This document shows, piece by piece, positions 6,430-57,985 of a DNA stretch of 64,000 bases. The DNA is taken from positions 5,579,501 through 5,643,500 of the forward strand of contig NC_009523.1 of NCBI RefSeq assembly GCF_000016665.1, in the 5' to 3' direction. The DNA comes from Roseiflexus sp. RS-1 (lineage in GTDB: Bacteria > Chloroflexota > Chloroflexia > Chloroflexales > Roseiflexaceae). The notes below the pieces were generated by a model that was given only the letters and a program-made list of their open reading frames with translations, did not search any database and was not told the DNA's origin. Within the stretch, counting starts at the first letter, position 1; every line of letters starts with the position of its first letter. Made by a program: the position numbers and the translations under genes.

Positions 6430-6678
6430 TGGTCTTTGAGAAATAATCCGCCATAGCCCGCGCAGGCAGGCTTCACCTTGCATAGCCGAGGGCGTATGGT
6501 CTTTGAATAAATAATCCGGTATAGCCCGCGCAGGCGGGCTTTGCCCTGGTTAGCCGAGGGCGTATGGTCTTTGAATAAATAATCCGGTATAGCCCGCGCA
6601 GGCGGGCTTTGCCCTGGTTAGCCGAGGGCTTCAGCCCCACGGCTAGCGCAGTATAGCGGATTTAATTTTCAATCTCCA
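6430..6678. repeat. MITE-like array with IS630-type ends
   Basis: Three tandem units begin at 6430, 6497 and 6565, each opening with TGGTCTTTGA followed by an A/T-rich stretch and ATCCG. Each then carries the hairpin AGCCCGCGCAGGCGGGCT (or a variant) and a TAGCCGAGGGC segment. The block closes at 6678 with the inverse form GGATTTAATTTTCAATCTCCA. The opening sequence is nearly the same as the right end of the IS630-type element at 56596-57850, so these look like non-autonomous derivatives of that family. Related arrays lie at 37358-37662, 56498-56595 and 57851-57985. Confidence 0.75.
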
Positions 6679-6835
6679 TCAGCTCCACGGCTCGTTCGGT
6701 AGAGCGGATTTATAGCAGTTCTCACAAAGATCGGTCTTGTCGGGCAGGGTTGCACCCGCCATCGAGCGCAGACGCCTTGTGCATCATCCCTCCGCGTGCT
6801 CCGCGTCTCCGCGTGCATCGAACCGGCTCACGCGG

Positions 6836-6856
6836 AGTAACTGTGTTGCTTGTCAA
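6836..6856 (-). promoter_or_regulatory. Right-end half (-35) of the IS110 circle-junction promoter
   Basis: Minus strand reads TTGACA (6856-6851), then 13 bases, then the CT core. When the element circularises, this end abuts the left end and gives TTGACA-N17-TATAAT. TTGACA includes the transposase stop codon. Confidence 0.82.
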
Positions 6857-7815
6857 GGGGCGCTCGTATGCACAGCCGGATCCCAGGGCTTTTGCTGACG
6901 CAATATTGCGCCGAGAATAGTCAGCAGCTTGCGCATCGCAGCGACGATGGCGACCTTGCGCGGCTTGCCAGCTTGACACAGGCGCTGATCGAAGGCGCGC
7001 CTGACCAGACGGCGCCGCGTGGCCGCCAGGGTCGCCATGTACAACACGCTGCGCACATCCCTCCTGCCGCCGGAGATATGCCGGGGTTTGCGCTGTGCGC
7101 CGCTCTGATTGGCATACGGCGCAACGCCCACAACGGCCGCCGCTTCCTTGCGATTGATGGTCCCCAGTTCGGGCAGGCGGAGCAGCAGGTTCAGTGCGGT
7201 GATCGCGCCGATGCCGGGCACGCTTTCGAGCAGCTCCCGTTTCCGGCGCACCTCGTCGGTGCGCTCCGCCTCGTTGTCGCGTTCCTGCTCAAGCGCACGG
7301 ATCTCCTGATCCAGCCAATCAATATGCTTCTGGATGCCCGGGCGGAGGTTCGGCGCGGCAGCCGTCAACCGATTGATCTCAGCCGTCCGCATCTGAATCA
7401 ACTGCTCCCGCCGGACCAGCAGGTCGCGCAAGGATGCGCGCTGCTCGTCCGTCGCTTGGTGGTGCGGCGGGCGCACCCGTTCGGCAAAGCGGGCGAGCAA
7501 CCGGGCATCCAGGCGGTCGGTCTTCGCCTGGCGTCCTTCCGCGTGCGCCAGGGCGCGCACGCGGCGTGGCTGCACCCGCGCCGTCGGCACGCCAGCCTGG
7601 AGCAGTTGGGCGAACACCATGCGCTCCAGCCCGCCGGTCGCCTCCAGCACAATCAGGGTCGGCTGCAGGCGCTGGAGTCGCGTGACCAGGAGCTGGACAC
7701 CTTCGTCGGTAGACGGTATCGTCTCGCGTGGCGCGTGCGGGTCGGCGCCAAACGCCACATCCAGCGTCTGTTTGGAGACATCAATGCCGATAAAGAGCGA
7801 CTCACGGGAAGCCAT
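6853..7815 (-). CDS. IS110-family DEDD transposase (bridge-RNA-guided recombinase type)
   Basis: A 320-residue recombinase, normal IS110 length. The N-terminal RuvC-like domain has IGIDVSK (Asp12), VLEATGG (Glu58) and KTDRLDA (Asp100, Asp103), which is the DEDD set. A central helical part (about 115-195) leads to the C-terminal Tnp_20-type domain with SVPGIGAITA and PYANQSGAQRKPRHISGG, containing the candidate catalytic Ser238. The start ATG 7815 has AGGAGG eight bases upstream. The stop codon TGA lies inside the TTGACA hexamer that would become the -35 box at the circle junction. All catalytic residues are present and the frame is intact, so the protein may be active. Confidence 0.95.
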   Translation of the reverse strand: MASRESLFIGIDVSKQTLDVAFGADPHAPRETIPSTDEGVQLLVTRLQRLQPTLIVLEATGGLERMVFAQLLQAGVPTARVQPRRVRALAHAEGRQAKTDRLDARLLARFAERVRPPHHQATDEQRASLRDLLVRREQLIQMRTAEINRLTAAAPNLRPGIQKHIDWLDQEIRALEQERDNEAERTDEVRRKRELLESVPGIGAITALNLLLRLPELGTINRKEAAAVVGVAPYANQSGAQRKPRHISGGRRDVRSVLYMATLAATRRRLVRRAFDQRLCQAGKPRKVAIVAAMRKLLTILGAILRQQKPWDPAVHTSAP

Positions 7816-7829
7816 ACACAGAACCTCCT

Positions 7830-7970
7830 GAGGAAAACGGCGCCAGCCTTGCTAGCATATGCGGGTTTGAGGGCCCAGATAACTGTTCGGCTTGGTCGCG
7901 TTGAAGGACACGGCTACCCAACACTCCGCGGCGATCTCGTGAACCTGGCGCAGAACGGTATACCGTGTCC
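7830..7970 (-). ncRNA. Predicted IS110 bridge RNA
   Basis: Non-coding leader on the transposase strand, 5' end expected near 7970, seven bases after TATAAT. First loop: a perfect 8-bp stem GGACACGG (7970-7963) with CCGTGTCC (7913-7906), plus an inner TACC/GGTA pairing. On its 5' side TCTGCGCC (7954-7947) matches the left target TCCGCGCC with one G-U-compatible change. On its 3' side CGCGGAG (7930-7924) is the exact complement of the right target CTCCGCG. Second loop: stem AGCC (7892-7889) with GGCT (7848-7845). On its 5' side ACAGTTA (7886-7880) matches the right end of the element exactly. On its 3' side TATGCTAG (7859-7852) pairs with the left end CTAGTATA with one G-T wobble. Order and polarity fit the published target-binding and donor-binding loops of IS110 bridge RNAs. 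The 3' end is a guess. Confidence 0.82.
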
Positions 7971-7976
7971 CGTTAG

Positions 7977-7984
7977 ATTATACT
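7977..7984 (-). promoter_or_regulatory. Left-end half (-10, TATAAT) of the IS110 circle-junction promoter
   Basis: Minus strand reads AG-TATAAT immediately inside the left end (TATAAT at 7982-7977). In the integrated state there is no TTGACA-like box at the right distance. In the circle the right end supplies it with a 17-bp spacer, driving the leader RNA and transposase. Confidence 0.82.
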
Positions 7985-8011
7985 AGGCGCGGAGGCGCGG
8001 AGATGGGGAGC

Positions 8012-8116
8012 GCAGTTCTCACAAATCCTGTTGGACGGGGCTGCGCCTGTCGCTGCAAGCGGGCGCCTCGCGCGACACGGCGCTCCCAGACAGGGTTCAA
8101 CGTATCTGAGAACTGC
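8012..8116. repeat. 105-bp element bounded by 10-bp inverted repeats
   Basis: GCAGTTCTCA (8012-8021) and TGAGAACTGC (8107-8116) bound a GC-rich segment. GCAGTTCTCACAAA also occurs at 6715-6728, on the other side of the IS110 element, followed by different sequence. It looks like a small MITE or two related repeat ends. From 8117 to 8404 I see nothing else except TATAAT at 8117-8122 and a short GTGTTAGAA duplication near 8345-8375. Confidence 0.5.
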
Positions 8117-8404
8117 TATAATGCTCAATTTCCATCAGCCCGACGGCAAAAAGTGAACAAATTATGCGGGCAGGAGAGGGCGGCGCCGCGCACGGACATG
8201 GTTCTCGGAGAGAGACAATCGGTTTCCTGCCTCCCGTGAAAGAAAGAACCCCTTCTATCTTCGTCTCTGTGACGGGAACATGACAACCCCTCGTCAGGAA
8301 AAATCATCCGACGACGGGATAAGAATACAGGCTTCTTCTCATTGTGTTAGAATTGTGTTTGATATGTGTTAGAAGTGTAAAAAACAGGCATAAAACCGGG
8401 TTAT

Positions 8405-8449
8405 CAAACCTCACGTTGCCTTGCGCCGCCGTGAGGTTTGTGATATACT
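8405..8449 (+). promoter_or_regulatory. Promoter with 11-bp inverted repeat over the -35
   Basis: TTGCGC (8421-8426), 17-bp spacer, TATACT (8444-8449), preceded by TG one base upstream (extended -10). CAAACCTCACG (8405-8415) and CGTGAGGTTTG (8430-8440) form a perfect inverted repeat enclosing the -35 box, a likely operator. It serves the small membrane peptide at 8533. Confidence 0.6.
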
Positions 8450-8532
8450 GGGAACTGCAAGCGATGAGTTCTTTTATGAAGAAATAGATCGGATTTCCCG
8501 GAAAATACCATTATTATCCAGGGAGGTCGACT

Positions 8533-8631
8533 ATGGGCGTGTTTCTGGCGGCTTTCTTCACCATCGTGCTCATCGTTGCTACCGTCTTCTTCCTGTCCAT
8601 GATCATGTCGGGGAGACCAGAATCCCGGTAA
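8533..8631 (+). CDS. Single-pass membrane peptide, 32 residues
   Basis: A short gene, MGVFLAAFFTIVLIVATV... ending SGRPESR. GGGAGG lies seven bases before the ATG, a promoter with a palindrome lies about 85 bp upstream, and a hairpin terminator lies 45 bp downstream. Residues 3-25 form one hydrophobic helix, followed by a short positively charged tail; the topology is probably N-out/C-in or the reverse. I do not recognise the family. Size and layout resemble accessory subunits or stress-membrane peptides, but no partner gene is adjacent (an IS4-like element follows). That it is bracketed by a promoter, RBS and terminator argues it is real although very short. Confidence 0.62.
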   Translation: MGVFLAAFFTIVLIVATVFFLSMIMSGRPESR

Positions 8632-8676
8632 AGGAGTGATGGTGCATCACCGCACATGATCGCCATCGGTGACGCG

Positions 8677-8706
8677 GGGAGAGGTTTCTGCCTCTCCCTG
8701 CGTTCT
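8677..8706 (+). terminator. Rho-independent terminator of the small membrane peptide gene
   Basis: GGGAGAGG (8677-8684), loop TTTCTG, CCTCTCCC (8691-8698), then TGCGTTCTTT. Confidence 0.65.
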
Positions 8707-8761: not shown

Positions 8762-10144
8762 TTGAAAGGGGGGGGATTTAGGGCGATTTCAGGCATTGGG
8801 ACGGGTCATAGATATGCATGGTTACGCTGTCACCTATTTTGGGCAAGGGCTCCGGGCGCAACCACAAGCGGACCCAACAACGCCCTTGCGCCAGCAACCA
8901 GCGCAGGCGCCGACCTGCCCCCCGCCGGAGCAGGCTGATCACCCGCTGCGCCGTGCCGCTCCAGCGACGGCGCAGCGGTGCGCCCGTCGTCGGCGGCGCC
9001 CGCCGCAAGCGACCGGGCGGAACCCCCTGCGGTTCTGCATCGTCGATCCGCGTGCCGACGGCCACCGTCCACCGCGTGACCGTCGCCACCACCAGATACT
9101 GCCAGGCCACCGCATCCGGGTCCGTCACCTGACCGCGTTGCCAGTCCCAGCCCATCGACGTACTTTGGCGGAAGCCCGCCTCGTCCCAACTGCGCAGGGC
9201 ATACCACGCGGCATCCACCCGCGCGGGCGGCAGATCGGTCAGCAGCACCCACGGTTCCGCATGGCCGGCGCCCCACGCCACCGCCAGCGTGCCCGCAATC
9301 CGCTTGGGTGCGTGCGTGAAGGCGACCCCCGCGCCCACCCATCCATGCCCCGGTCCGGGCGCCAGACGCAGCACCGACTGGCGCACCTGACCGGTCGGCG
9401 CGAAGGTCGACGTGGGACGCACCCGCATGATGGGATGGACCTGCTGCGACCGGATGGCGTGCCACCGCCGGGGGCTCCACAACCCCTGATCCGCCAGCGT
9501 GAGGACCTCCTGGTCGAGCGGCAGCGCGCTGCGGGCCCAGCGCAGCATCCGCTCCCAGTGCGGTTCCCACGCGCCCGGTTGGTTCGCCGGGACGATCACC
9601 CAGGCGACCGGCAGGGCAGCGCCCCGATAGAGGACGCTCATGCGCAGCAGAACGACGTCAGCGCGCCGATGGGAGGCATCCAGCCCGAGCACGAGCGGTC
9701 CGCCGGTCCAGTGCGCGCGAATCCAGCGGAGCAGGTCGGCGCCGCACGCCAGCGGACTGACCACCGGTGGCGCACCCGCCGCAGGTGGGTCGGCGGTGTT
9801 TATGAGATGGGCCGGGGCGGCGATCCAGGCGTCCCAGGCGTCCGCCAGGGTGGCGGCGCGGGCGATCCCGGCAGTGGCGAGCGCCGGCGCCAGCGCGGGA
9901 CGATTGGCGCTCCCCGCCAAGAGGGCGCCCAAGACCCAGCGGGCCAGGGCGCGGCGCCAGTGACGCGACAAGCGCGGGAAGAGGGTCTGGATCTGCTGCT
10001 GCAGCAACCGTTCCGTGGGCGTGCGGGCCATTCCATCCTCCGTGTCTCGCGATCCTTCCATGATCATGATACCGACGGATCGGCCCGTGCGTTCGGTGGA
10101 ACGGAAACGGTTGACAATCTGCCTGCGAATCCCCCCCCTTTCAA
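8762..10144 (-). mobile_element. IS4-like insertion sequence (about 1.38 kb) with G-rich inverted ends
   Basis: TTGAAAGGGGGGGGATT (8762-8778) and AATCCCCCCCCTTTCAA (10128-10144) are perfect 17-bp inverted repeats, extendable by GGG/CCC outward, enclosing one transposase gene that stops inside the left repeat. Both flanks carry pieces of a widespread C-rich/G-rich repeat (GCCCCTCATCCCCCC... and AAGGGGAGAAGGGGGAG...), so the element probably inserted into a copy of that repeat. The exact end and target duplication cannot be fixed. Confidence 0.7.
8778..10031 (-). CDS. IS4-like DDE transposase
   Basis: A 417-residue transposase. The start is ATG 10031, supported by GGAGG just upstream; the frame is open further upstream but that part reads through intergenic repeat. 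The catalytic segments are LGLDASHRRADVVLLR (first Asp), LTLADQGLWSPRRWHAI (second Asp), and YALRSWDEAGFRQSTSMGWD. The last resembles the Y-x2-R-x3-E-x6-K signature of IS4-type enzymes, with Glu in the right place but Ser/Thr near the expected Lys. The large antisense ORF over this gene is a GC-rich shadow. The subgroup is uncertain. Confidence 0.8.
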   Translation of the reverse strand: MARTPTERLLQQQIQTLFPRLSRHWRRALARWVLGALLAGSANRPALAPALATAGIARAATLADAWDAWIAAPAHLINTADPPAAGAPPVVSPLACGADLLRWIRAHWTGGPLVLGLDASHRRADVVLLRMSVLYRGAALPVAWVIVPANQPGAWEPHWERMLRWARSALPLDQEVLTLADQGLWSPRRWHAIRSQQVHPIMRVRPTSTFAPTGQVRQSVLRLAPGPGHGWVGAGVAFTHAPKRIAGTLAVAWGAGHAEPWVLLTDLPPARVDAAWYALRSWDEAGFRQSTSMGWDWQRGQVTDPDAVAWQYLVVATVTRWTVAVGTRIDDAEPQGVPPGRLRRAPPTTGAPLRRRWSGTAQRVISLLRRGAGRRLRWLLAQGRCWVRLWLRPEPLPKIGDSVTMHIYDPSQCLKSP

Positions 10145-10262
10145 CCCACAAGGGGAGAAGGGGGAGTTTGGGCGTCCAGATGCCTGAAACGGGAGATGGC
10201 ACGCAGGGGCTTCCCAAAAAACCTATACCTGTGCTCTCCCCAACCCCCTTCTCCCACAAGTT
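10139..10262. repeat. C-rich/G-rich interspersed repeat (copy next to the IS4-like element)
   Basis: ACAAGGGGAGAAGGGGGAGT followed by GATGCCTGAAACGGGAGAT and CCCCAACCCCCTTCTCCCAC. The same family recurs at about 8723-8761, 31464-31670 and 46074-46190. From 10263 to 10723 I see nothing I can call. Confidence 0.75.
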
Positions 10263-10723
10263 TAGGGGTGGACAGAACATTTGAGCAAAGATGCGTTTTC
10301 TGGTGTTGCGATGGGCAATCCGTCCTCACCCTCGACCCCTATCCTGCACTGCGGGATAGAGGCAAATCTGAAGCACGTCTACCGCGTTGTGATACTGTCT
10401 GAGGCAGGCATCGTGTTCTACCAGCTTTGATGTGAAGGGAATTGCGGCGTTCCGATTGGCAGATCATCCCCGTAATGATACGCTGTTGCCAGAAAGAAAC
10501 TACCTGACAGAGAGATGGTTGCCATGGGATGGCGCGACGAACAGGCATTCTTTGACCGTCTGGCTGACACCTGGCCCCACGCCAGAAACTGGTTACGAAT
10601 CTTTAACCCCCTGACGTTGCCTCTTCTCCCCATGCGATGAGACGATATGCCATAATGACAATGGTCTACACAGGACACTCGCGTAAAGCATTTGTCCACG
10701 TCCTGTGTATTGTATGCGCCGTT

Positions 10724-37357: not shown

Positions 37358-37662
37358 TGGAGATTGAGCATTAAATCCGGTATGCGCCTCGTGCCGTGGG
37401 GCTCATGGAGATTGAGAATTTATTCCGCTCTACCGCGCTAGCCGTGGGGCTGAAGCCCCCGGCTATGCGAGGCGAAGCCCGCCTGCGCGGGCTGTAGCGG
37501 ATTATTTACTCAAAGACCATGAGGTGCGCTGCGCCCCCGCGCCCCCTGTACAGCGCTGCTGCGCCCCCCGTATGCGCTTCGTGCCGTGGGGCTGAAGCCC
37601 CCGGCTATGCGAGGCGAAGCCCGCCTGCGCGGGCTACACCGGATTATTTCTCAAAGACCATC
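37358..37662. repeat. MITE-like array, second copy
   Basis: Contains TGGAGATTGAGCATTAAATC (from about 37358), TGGAGATTGAGAATTTATTC (about 37409), two hairpins AGCCCGCCTGCGCGGGCT, and two inverse ends reading ATTATTT(A)CTCAAAGACCA (to about 37520 and 37662). Same elements as 6430-6678 in the opposite orientation. Accounts for the stretch 37340-37680. Confidence 0.75.
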
Positions 37663-57850: not shown

Positions 57851-57985
57851 AAGCCCTCGGCTAGCCAAGGCAAAGCCCGCCTGCGCGGGCTAGAGCGGAA
57901 CAATTACTCAAAGACCATAAGCCCTCGGCTATCCAGGGCAAAGCCTGCCTGCGCGGGCTAGAGCGGAATAATTACTCAAAGACCA
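57851..57985. repeat. MITE-like array right of the IS630-type element
   Basis: Two further units with hairpin AAGCCCGCCTGCGCGGGCT (or AAGCCTGCCTGCG) and inverse ends ATTACTCAAAGACCA. The last end runs into the 3' end of the next gene and supplies its stop codon. Confidence 0.75.

Follow-up and report, generated by a model that had tools for sequence, protein, structure and literature searches.

Does the noncoding leader of an IS110-like insertion element in Roseiflexus sp. RS-1, a thermophilic member of the Chloroflexota, hold a bridge RNA that reads both the element's ends and its insertion site, and, if so, how strictly is the target read? The question arises from a 64,000-nt stretch of the genome (contig NC_009523.1, positions 5,579,501 to 5,643,500 of the forward strand; hereafter the window, numbered from its first letter), in which a preliminary description had proposed an IS110 element with a functional bridge RNA, one loop fitting both sides of the insertion site and the other both ends of the element. 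We have very little doubt that this is a recently active, IS621-type element of the IS110 group and that it carries a bridge RNA. Direct support comes from its anatomy, the 40 copies in the genome, the agreement of guides with target and donor when set against controls, a structure backed by covariation and the empty insertion sites; its transcription, circular form and chemistry are proposed by analogy with published IS110 work. Bridge RNAs of IS110 elements were described in 2024 (Durrant et al., PMC11208160; Hiraizumi et al., PMC11208158; Siddiquee et al., PMC11187229), and Durrant et al. reported thousands of predicted IS110 RNAs. The window element is a clear new example of this known system, unusual in how loosely its left half-site is spaced from the core, and we make no claim that it is undescribed; a literature search on Roseiflexus IS110 returned no paper, and no paper on Roseiflexus insertion sequences dealt with the element by its title, the supplementary lists of Durrant et al. 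lying outside this search.

The coordinates first given for the element were essentially right, and its exact extent is 7986 to 6836 (Table 1). The recombinase matches PF01548 (DEDD_Tnp_IS110, 7.8e-25) and PF02371 (Transposase_20, 4.2e-16), scores 207 bits against a cut-off of 140 with the NCBIfam model NF033542 ("IS110 family RNA-guided transposase") and is related by sequence to two proteins of solved structure, those of ISCro4 (PDB 9t56, 6.5e-46) and IS621 (PDB 8wt6, phmmer 1.2e-42). It can be aligned with the IS621 protein and shows the motifs GIDVSK, LEATGG, KTDRLDARL and QSGAQ in this order, which would carry the catalytic D-E-D-D and serine. The ends have the layout of the IS110 group, with 171 noncoding nucleotides before the start codon and about 15 nt from the stop codon to the right core. 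By its domains, motifs and ends, the element belongs to the IS110 family and to its IS110 group.

Table 1. Positions of the element, its recombinase and the parts of its putative bridge RNA in the window
Feature	Position	Strand	Basis
Complete IS110-group element, 1151 bp including both CT cores	6836..7986	-	40 same-length genomic copies; gap-free empty sites for L012 and L038
IS110 DEDD recombinase/transposase, 320 aa	6853..7815 (including stop)	-	Pfam, NCBIfam and PDB sequence matches
Left end (LE) of 171 nt with the bridge RNA	7816..7986	-	40-copy comparison and alignment
Left core CT	7985..7986	-	40-copy comparison
Right core CT	6836..6837	-	40-copy comparison
Target-binding loop (TBL) and outer stem	7906..7971	-	double-sided changes in 9 of 13 outer-stem pairs (26 aligned elements)
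Left target guide TCTGCGC (7954-7948), then CA opposite the core	7946..7954	-	sequence and alignment
Right target guide CGCGGAG, pairing with CT-CCGCG	7924..7930	-	sequence and alignment
Donor-binding loop (DBL)	7843..7901	-	26-leader alignment and its fold
Left donor guide AACAGTTA, in the sense of the right end ...CACAGTTA-CT	7880..7887	-	swap test, 26 elements
Right donor guide TATGCTAG, pairing with the left end CT-AGTATA	7852..7859	-	window copy
Left target half CTCCGCGC in the flank	7987..7994	-	40-copy comparison
Right target half CCGCG in the flank	6831..6835	-	40-copy comparison
Putative -10 box TATAAT, its -35 supplied only once the right end joins in front	7977..7982	-	reconstructed junction
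Putative -35 box TTGACA within the right end, sharing bases with the transposase stop codon	6851..6856	-	reconstructed junction

The leader has the two internal loops of an IS621-type bridge RNA, with 5′ sides that match the left target and donor and 3′ sides that pair with the right ones, the right donor guide being a result for the window copy only, and all four guides claimed for it are present. In loop 1, TCTGCGC fits the left flank TCCGCGC-CT with one rU:dG wobble, and CGCGGAG fits the right flank CT-CCGCG exactly (7/7). In loop 2, ACAGTTA, which lies within AACAGTTA, copies the right end exactly; the pairing of TATGCTAG with CTAGTATA includes one G:T wobble. We scored chance matches as the maximum over positions, with 7 bases on the left and 5 on the right, at the CT sites of the window (6701-8100 excluded). 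Of these 6296 sites, 18, some of which might truly serve as targets, score no worse than the real target against loop 1, and 46 score no worse than the real ends against loop 2. As the guide matches of a single copy are only fairly improbable, relatives were tested: one copy by itself is suggestive only, while the 40 copies and the relatives are decisive.

A search of the genome itself (one contig, 5,801,598 bp) found 40 full-length matches with no internal stops and with proteins 97-100% identical, each copy being 1151 bp long with both CT cores, a left end of 171 nt and a short right end. Among 60 genomes of relatives, 17 had a match (E <= 0.001, all matches counted), and near-full-length matches beyond the genome itself were at most 36% identical. 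Forty open copies of one length indicate a recent burst of an element that appears to have been active until recently, and it is on these near-identical copies with open frames that the description of the system as functional would rest. When the flanks of one copy, L012, are joined around one CT (L-numbers denote individual element loci, L001 is the window copy and G000 the genome of Roseiflexus sp. RS-1), a reading frame is restored, and the joined sequence aligns without gaps to the intact locus in 5 of 5 congeneric genomes. Four congeneric loci were compared with the joined flanks of L038, of which three align gap-free and one with gaps, a 55-base match in a fifth congener being left out of the comparison. 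The flanks of L009 likewise join into an open frame, and none of the congeneric matches searched for it reached the junction. Because the joined flanks of L012 and L038 align gap-free to empty sites, CT is the sole shared sequence, and insertion takes place without further duplication.

The copies differ from one another at 3 of 171 leader columns, all A/C or G/T, and at 24 of 960 coding columns; in total, A/C or G/T differences make up 22 of the 27 variable columns. All four combinations occur in 96 of 136 informative column pairs, and nonsynonymous changes account for 21 of the 24 in the coding region. Such differences look like base-calling or assembly error in a repeat, although a real mutational cause is also possible. 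Leader conservation was rejected as evidence of function, since the density of differences is similar to that of the coding region and the differences are error-like, and a T-to-G change in the left donor guide (L010, L016 and L034) and a C-to-A change in the core (L031) were left uninterpreted as part of the same error-like pattern. The variable leader columns fall outside the target guides, which are identical in all copies.

For comparison among related elements, 400 genomes of the phylum were surveyed, of which 31, including Roseiflexus sp. RS-1 itself, had a match at E <= 1e-40. Hits were kept at an identity of at least 38% over at least 200 query residues; 15 further loci without a recognisable end were skipped, L087 was dropped for its 4-nt right flank, and L026 and L026b were removed as the same copies as L034 and L034b. 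The resulting test set holds 34 elements with both ends definable (L001 and 33 relatives, from the survey and from further copies), whose left ends were placed by a coded rule, except for L066 and L097, where they were set by hand among several candidates. Excluded from the analysis were one locus at 26% identity from a contig scan and the matches to 1133 plasmid records, all below 60% identity and at best 46.5% among the matches listed. When each loop 1 was compared freely with all 34 flank pairs, the mean score was 10.16 for its own flanks and 9.00 for swapped ones, and 0 of 20000 permutations reached the former. The main check proposed in the preliminary description thus speaks for it: in related elements at other targets, loop 1 fits its own target better than a swapped one, though not in every element.

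A finer comparison was based on an alignment of 26 of the 34 leaders, with L071, L075, L076, L085, L097, L099, L103 and L108 left out as near-duplicates or long leaders; its figures are somewhat favourable, as several omitted elements scored poorly in the free swap test (L075, rank 22 of 33; L097, rank 10 of 33). With columns fixed by L001, right-target pairing was 0.83-0.94 for own flanks vs 0.32-0.41 for swapped ones, and 0 of 20000 permutations reached the combined score. When offsets 0 to 6 were scanned, the left guide rose above chance only with position 7 three bases before the inner stem (offset 3), where the left-target score over all 26 elements was 5.02 vs 3.06 for swapped flanks (0 of 5000 permutations; 547 of 5000 at the next-best offset). 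Taken one by one, offset 3 gave the best score in 19 of the 26 elements (in two of them jointly with 4), offset 2 in L001 and L080, and offset 1 in L066, or 2 if its stem is read one base later; L067, L094, L107 and L113 were best at other offsets with lower scores. Offset 2 for L001 and L066 with 3 for the others, a choice made from the sequences after the fixed-offset result was known, gave 5.12 vs 3.16 (0 of 20000). The left donor guide, in turn, scored 6.90 with its own right ends and 6.16 with swapped ones (0 of 20000).

The same alignment yields a consensus fold of 27 pairs, 17 of them changed on both sides and with 94.4% of cells paired, which beats 500 of 500 shuffles and every slid version; compensatory changes of this kind argue for a conserved bridge RNA secondary structure. 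Handshake bases, described in IS621 by Hiraizumi et al. (PMC11208158), can be followed as well. At donor position 7, 26/26 elements have a base that pairs with the first handshake base of loop 1 (donor G with C in 21, T with A in 3, A with U in 2; 0 of 20000 permutations); at target position 7, 22/26 have one that pairs with the handshake base of loop 2 (37 of 20000). The aligned elements thereby reproduce the published covariation.

The 40 insertion sites tell us how one RNA is read. To the right, all 40 carry CT-C-N-G-(C/T)-G, where N is C in 23, T in 8, G in 7 and A in 2 and the pyrimidine is C in 36 and T in 4; C or T at these two positions is what a guide G permits through wobble. To the left, 39 of 40 sites agree with TCYGCG in 5 or all 6 of its bases at a distance of 0-3 nt from the core (L025 agrees in 4/6). 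Elsewhere in the window CTCNGYG occurs 90 times, and only 12 of these sites come with so good a left half (exact in 4), as against the 39 of 40 insertions (Fisher P 2.4e-21); the left half-site is therefore selected.

A number of observations count against reading the leader as a bridge RNA of this type. The left guide ends in CA whereas the core is CT, and, with the offset of L001, the left-target positions stand at chance, reaching significance only at another offset. In the free swap test, own flanks came top in just 9 of the 34 elements and fell in the worse half for six (L072, L075, L079, L098, L107 and L113). The loop 2 handshake C is unpaired with target position 7 of the window copy, itself a C, so that L001, like L066, is one of the 4 exceptions among 26; a pairing G occurs there in only 6/40 insertion sites, and position N of the right half is mismatched (G or A) in 9/40. 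In a low-copy family of two other genomes (G154 and G126), considered as a candidate case of rapid retargeting within one genome, the guide fit is poor or mixed: L076 and L098 have leaders that differ at 2 of 174 positions, each within a guide, with a partial fit to the new targets; L099 has the guides of L076 at a different target; and L075 and L096 have identical guides and different targets. Of the checks suggested with the preliminary description, fold prediction on the single sequence gave a structure no stabler than shuffles (z 0.30, with 121 of 200 shuffles at least as stable), and the covariance-model search, made through Rfam only and at gathering thresholds, listed no bridge RNA anywhere in the window.

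Could the leader instead be an ordinary structured 5′ untranslated region, with a loop 1 that resembles GC-rich, repeat-like flanks and a site found by protein contacts? The equally good chance matches (18 of 6296 CT sites) would agree with this, as would the fact that the target halves are near-copies, so that the guides are partly complementary and could form a plain stem. However, guide-guide pairing is nothing special, with at least 3 expected pairs in 24 of the 26 aligned elements, loop 1 scores higher against own flanks than against swapped ones across relatives, and the 59%-identical L066, with guides TTTGTGTC and CACGAAG, sits at TTTGTGTC-CT-TTGTG; we regard an ordinary leader as very improbable. 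It is also quite unlikely, in our opinion, that the right target guide and the CT core select the site alone and that the likeness on the left is a by-product of tandem repeats, given that left halves of such quality are found at 12/90 window CTCNGYG sites vs 39/40 insertions and that the left guides of the 26 aligned elements agree with their own flanks beyond chance at one offset, even though the right half is fixed (CT-CNGYG, 40/40) and the left half shifts by 0-3 nt. That the element is dead and merely resembles a working bridge-RNA system is hardly credible for 40 copies of 1151 bp each without internal stops, whose proteins, 97-100% identical, suggest a recent burst. A self-locking RNA, whose left and right guides would pair mutually on a target that is a direct repeat, was considered separately and rejected, as guide-guide pairing is common in the 26 aligned elements.

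If the leader is a bridge RNA, as we hold, the distance between its left half-site and the core deserves attention. TCYGCG lies 1 nt from the core in 25 sites, 2 nt in 13, 0 nt in one (L012, backed by its empty sites) and 3 nt in one (L018), and, since the target guides are identical in all copies, the shift lies in the reading and not in the RNA. Uninterrupted CTCYGCG-N(0-8)-CTCNGCG occurs at 96 places genome-wide (by hand count, 54 at distance 1, 40 at distance 2 and 2 others), while occupied sites exact in both halves number 11, 10 and 1 at distances 1, 2 and 3. The reversed pattern was rejected as a control since it retrieves the same type of tandem array in another phase. Occupation at distances 1 and 2 is indistinguishable (Fisher P 0.81), in numbers that could hide a moderate preference and for places that overlap within arrays, with almost no exact places at other distances. 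An orthologous empty site was not found for any copy at distance 2; the distance-2 form does stand uninterrupted elsewhere in the genome. On this evidence, we are evenly divided over whether the left guide floats out of register, accepting 1 nt as readily as 2 and occasionally 0 or 3, with the position of the cut set by the right guide and the CT core. The fixed left-guide distance, a property of IS621 and not a stated criterion of the family, is not kept here. A left half-site 1 nt from the core corresponds to an 8-nt repeat period and one at 2 nt to a 9-nt period. Perhaps the floating register is tied to the CA-GG arrangement beside the left guide, which is seen in the window copy and in L066.

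As for the origin of the RNA, the reconstructed circle junction reads TTGACA-17-TATAAT, a 12/12 match to the sigma-70 consensus, and 22 of the 34 elements reach at least 9/12 at their junctions in a permissive search (spacers 15-19); a promoter scan of the linear window from 6700 to 8200 listed none on the reverse strand. Such reconstitution of a promoter by circularisation is known for IS110 elements (Durrant et al., PMC11208160) and for ISEc21 (Siddiquee et al., PMC11187229). Since none but the circle junction has the strong promoter, a lack of RNA from the reverse strand, which the preliminary description had counted as a refutation, would be a weak one. The stem of the TBL starts at LE position 16, a few bases past the -10 box, and a 5′ stem-loop ahead of it is absent; in our reading this stem-loop is a non-defining feature, since several relatives here also have short leaders. 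The recombinase would then excise the element as a circle, with the right end joined to the left end through one CT core, and the perfect promoter at the junction would yield a bridge RNA of about 130 nt. Loop 2 would pair with the joined ends as donor and loop 1 with the target TCYGCG-N(1 or 2)-CT-CNGCG, which is common in the dispersed short tandem repeats of this genome, and strand exchange at the CT core would insert the element with nothing beyond CT duplicated.

Among known systems, IS621, as far as the published descriptions go, shares with the window element a DEDD recombinase, a bridge RNA in the left end with the target loop before the donor loop, a CT core, a joined-end promoter and dispersed repeats as targets. 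Its protein is distant (phmmer 1.2e-42), and, in the same descriptions, it differs in having a 5′ stem-loop before the target loop, which the window leader lacks, and in lacking what is seen here, namely a left guide that ends in CA, a loop 2 handshake unmatched at most sites and a variable left half-site distance. ISCro4 is the best PDB match (9t56), a likeness by protein sequence alone. ISEc21 and its seekRNA (PMC11187229) are described as an IS110 element with an upstream RNA matching both target strands, a joined-end promoter and no target duplication, to which the window element is alike by description and not by sequence, differing in that it targets short dispersed repeats. Within the same phylum, L066 (G124) has nearly the same ends and the same CA-GG beside the left guide, but other guides and, correspondingly, the other target given above.

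Some further observations concern the copies and their surroundings. L034 (G000:C1:2815371-2817487) consists of two tandem copies spaced by CT-CAGCGT-CT, of which one seems to have used the other's flank as part of its target. In another genome of the genus (G001), L051 is a broken, diverged IS110 relative whose end downstream of the coding remnant, CACAGTTACT followed by CCGCG, repeats the right end and right half-target of the window copy, its left end being off the contig. The left flank of the window copy (7987-8150) is a dispersed repeat: searching with 7987-8680 produced 61 matches in G000, one of them the query locus itself, and 52 in one congener, mostly within the first 165 bases of the query. 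The six Rfam CRISPR-DR28 hits of the window (6522-6613 on the reverse strand; 37471-37636 and 57869-57960 on the forward strand) also look like a dispersed repeat rather than a CRISPR array, since those at 6522-6613 lie on a 68-bp tandem unit that is near-identical between hits; another pair of hits is also 68 bp apart. A 500-aa open frame adjoining the element (8778-10280, reverse strand) resembles a further transposase, unrelated to that of the element.

Bridge RNA systems are under development for the insertion of large DNA, for which the strictness of target reading matters, and this genome offers a natural experiment, with 40 landings by essentially one RNA and unused sites for comparison. 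These landings show that the right half is read strictly and that wobble and a shift in spacing are tolerated on the left, and what they add is that a distance other than the commonest was used in 15 of 40 natural landings of one element. If the left guide does float, bridge RNA targeting would have a natural variant in which a single RNA could reach an entire class of tandem repeats with different periods.
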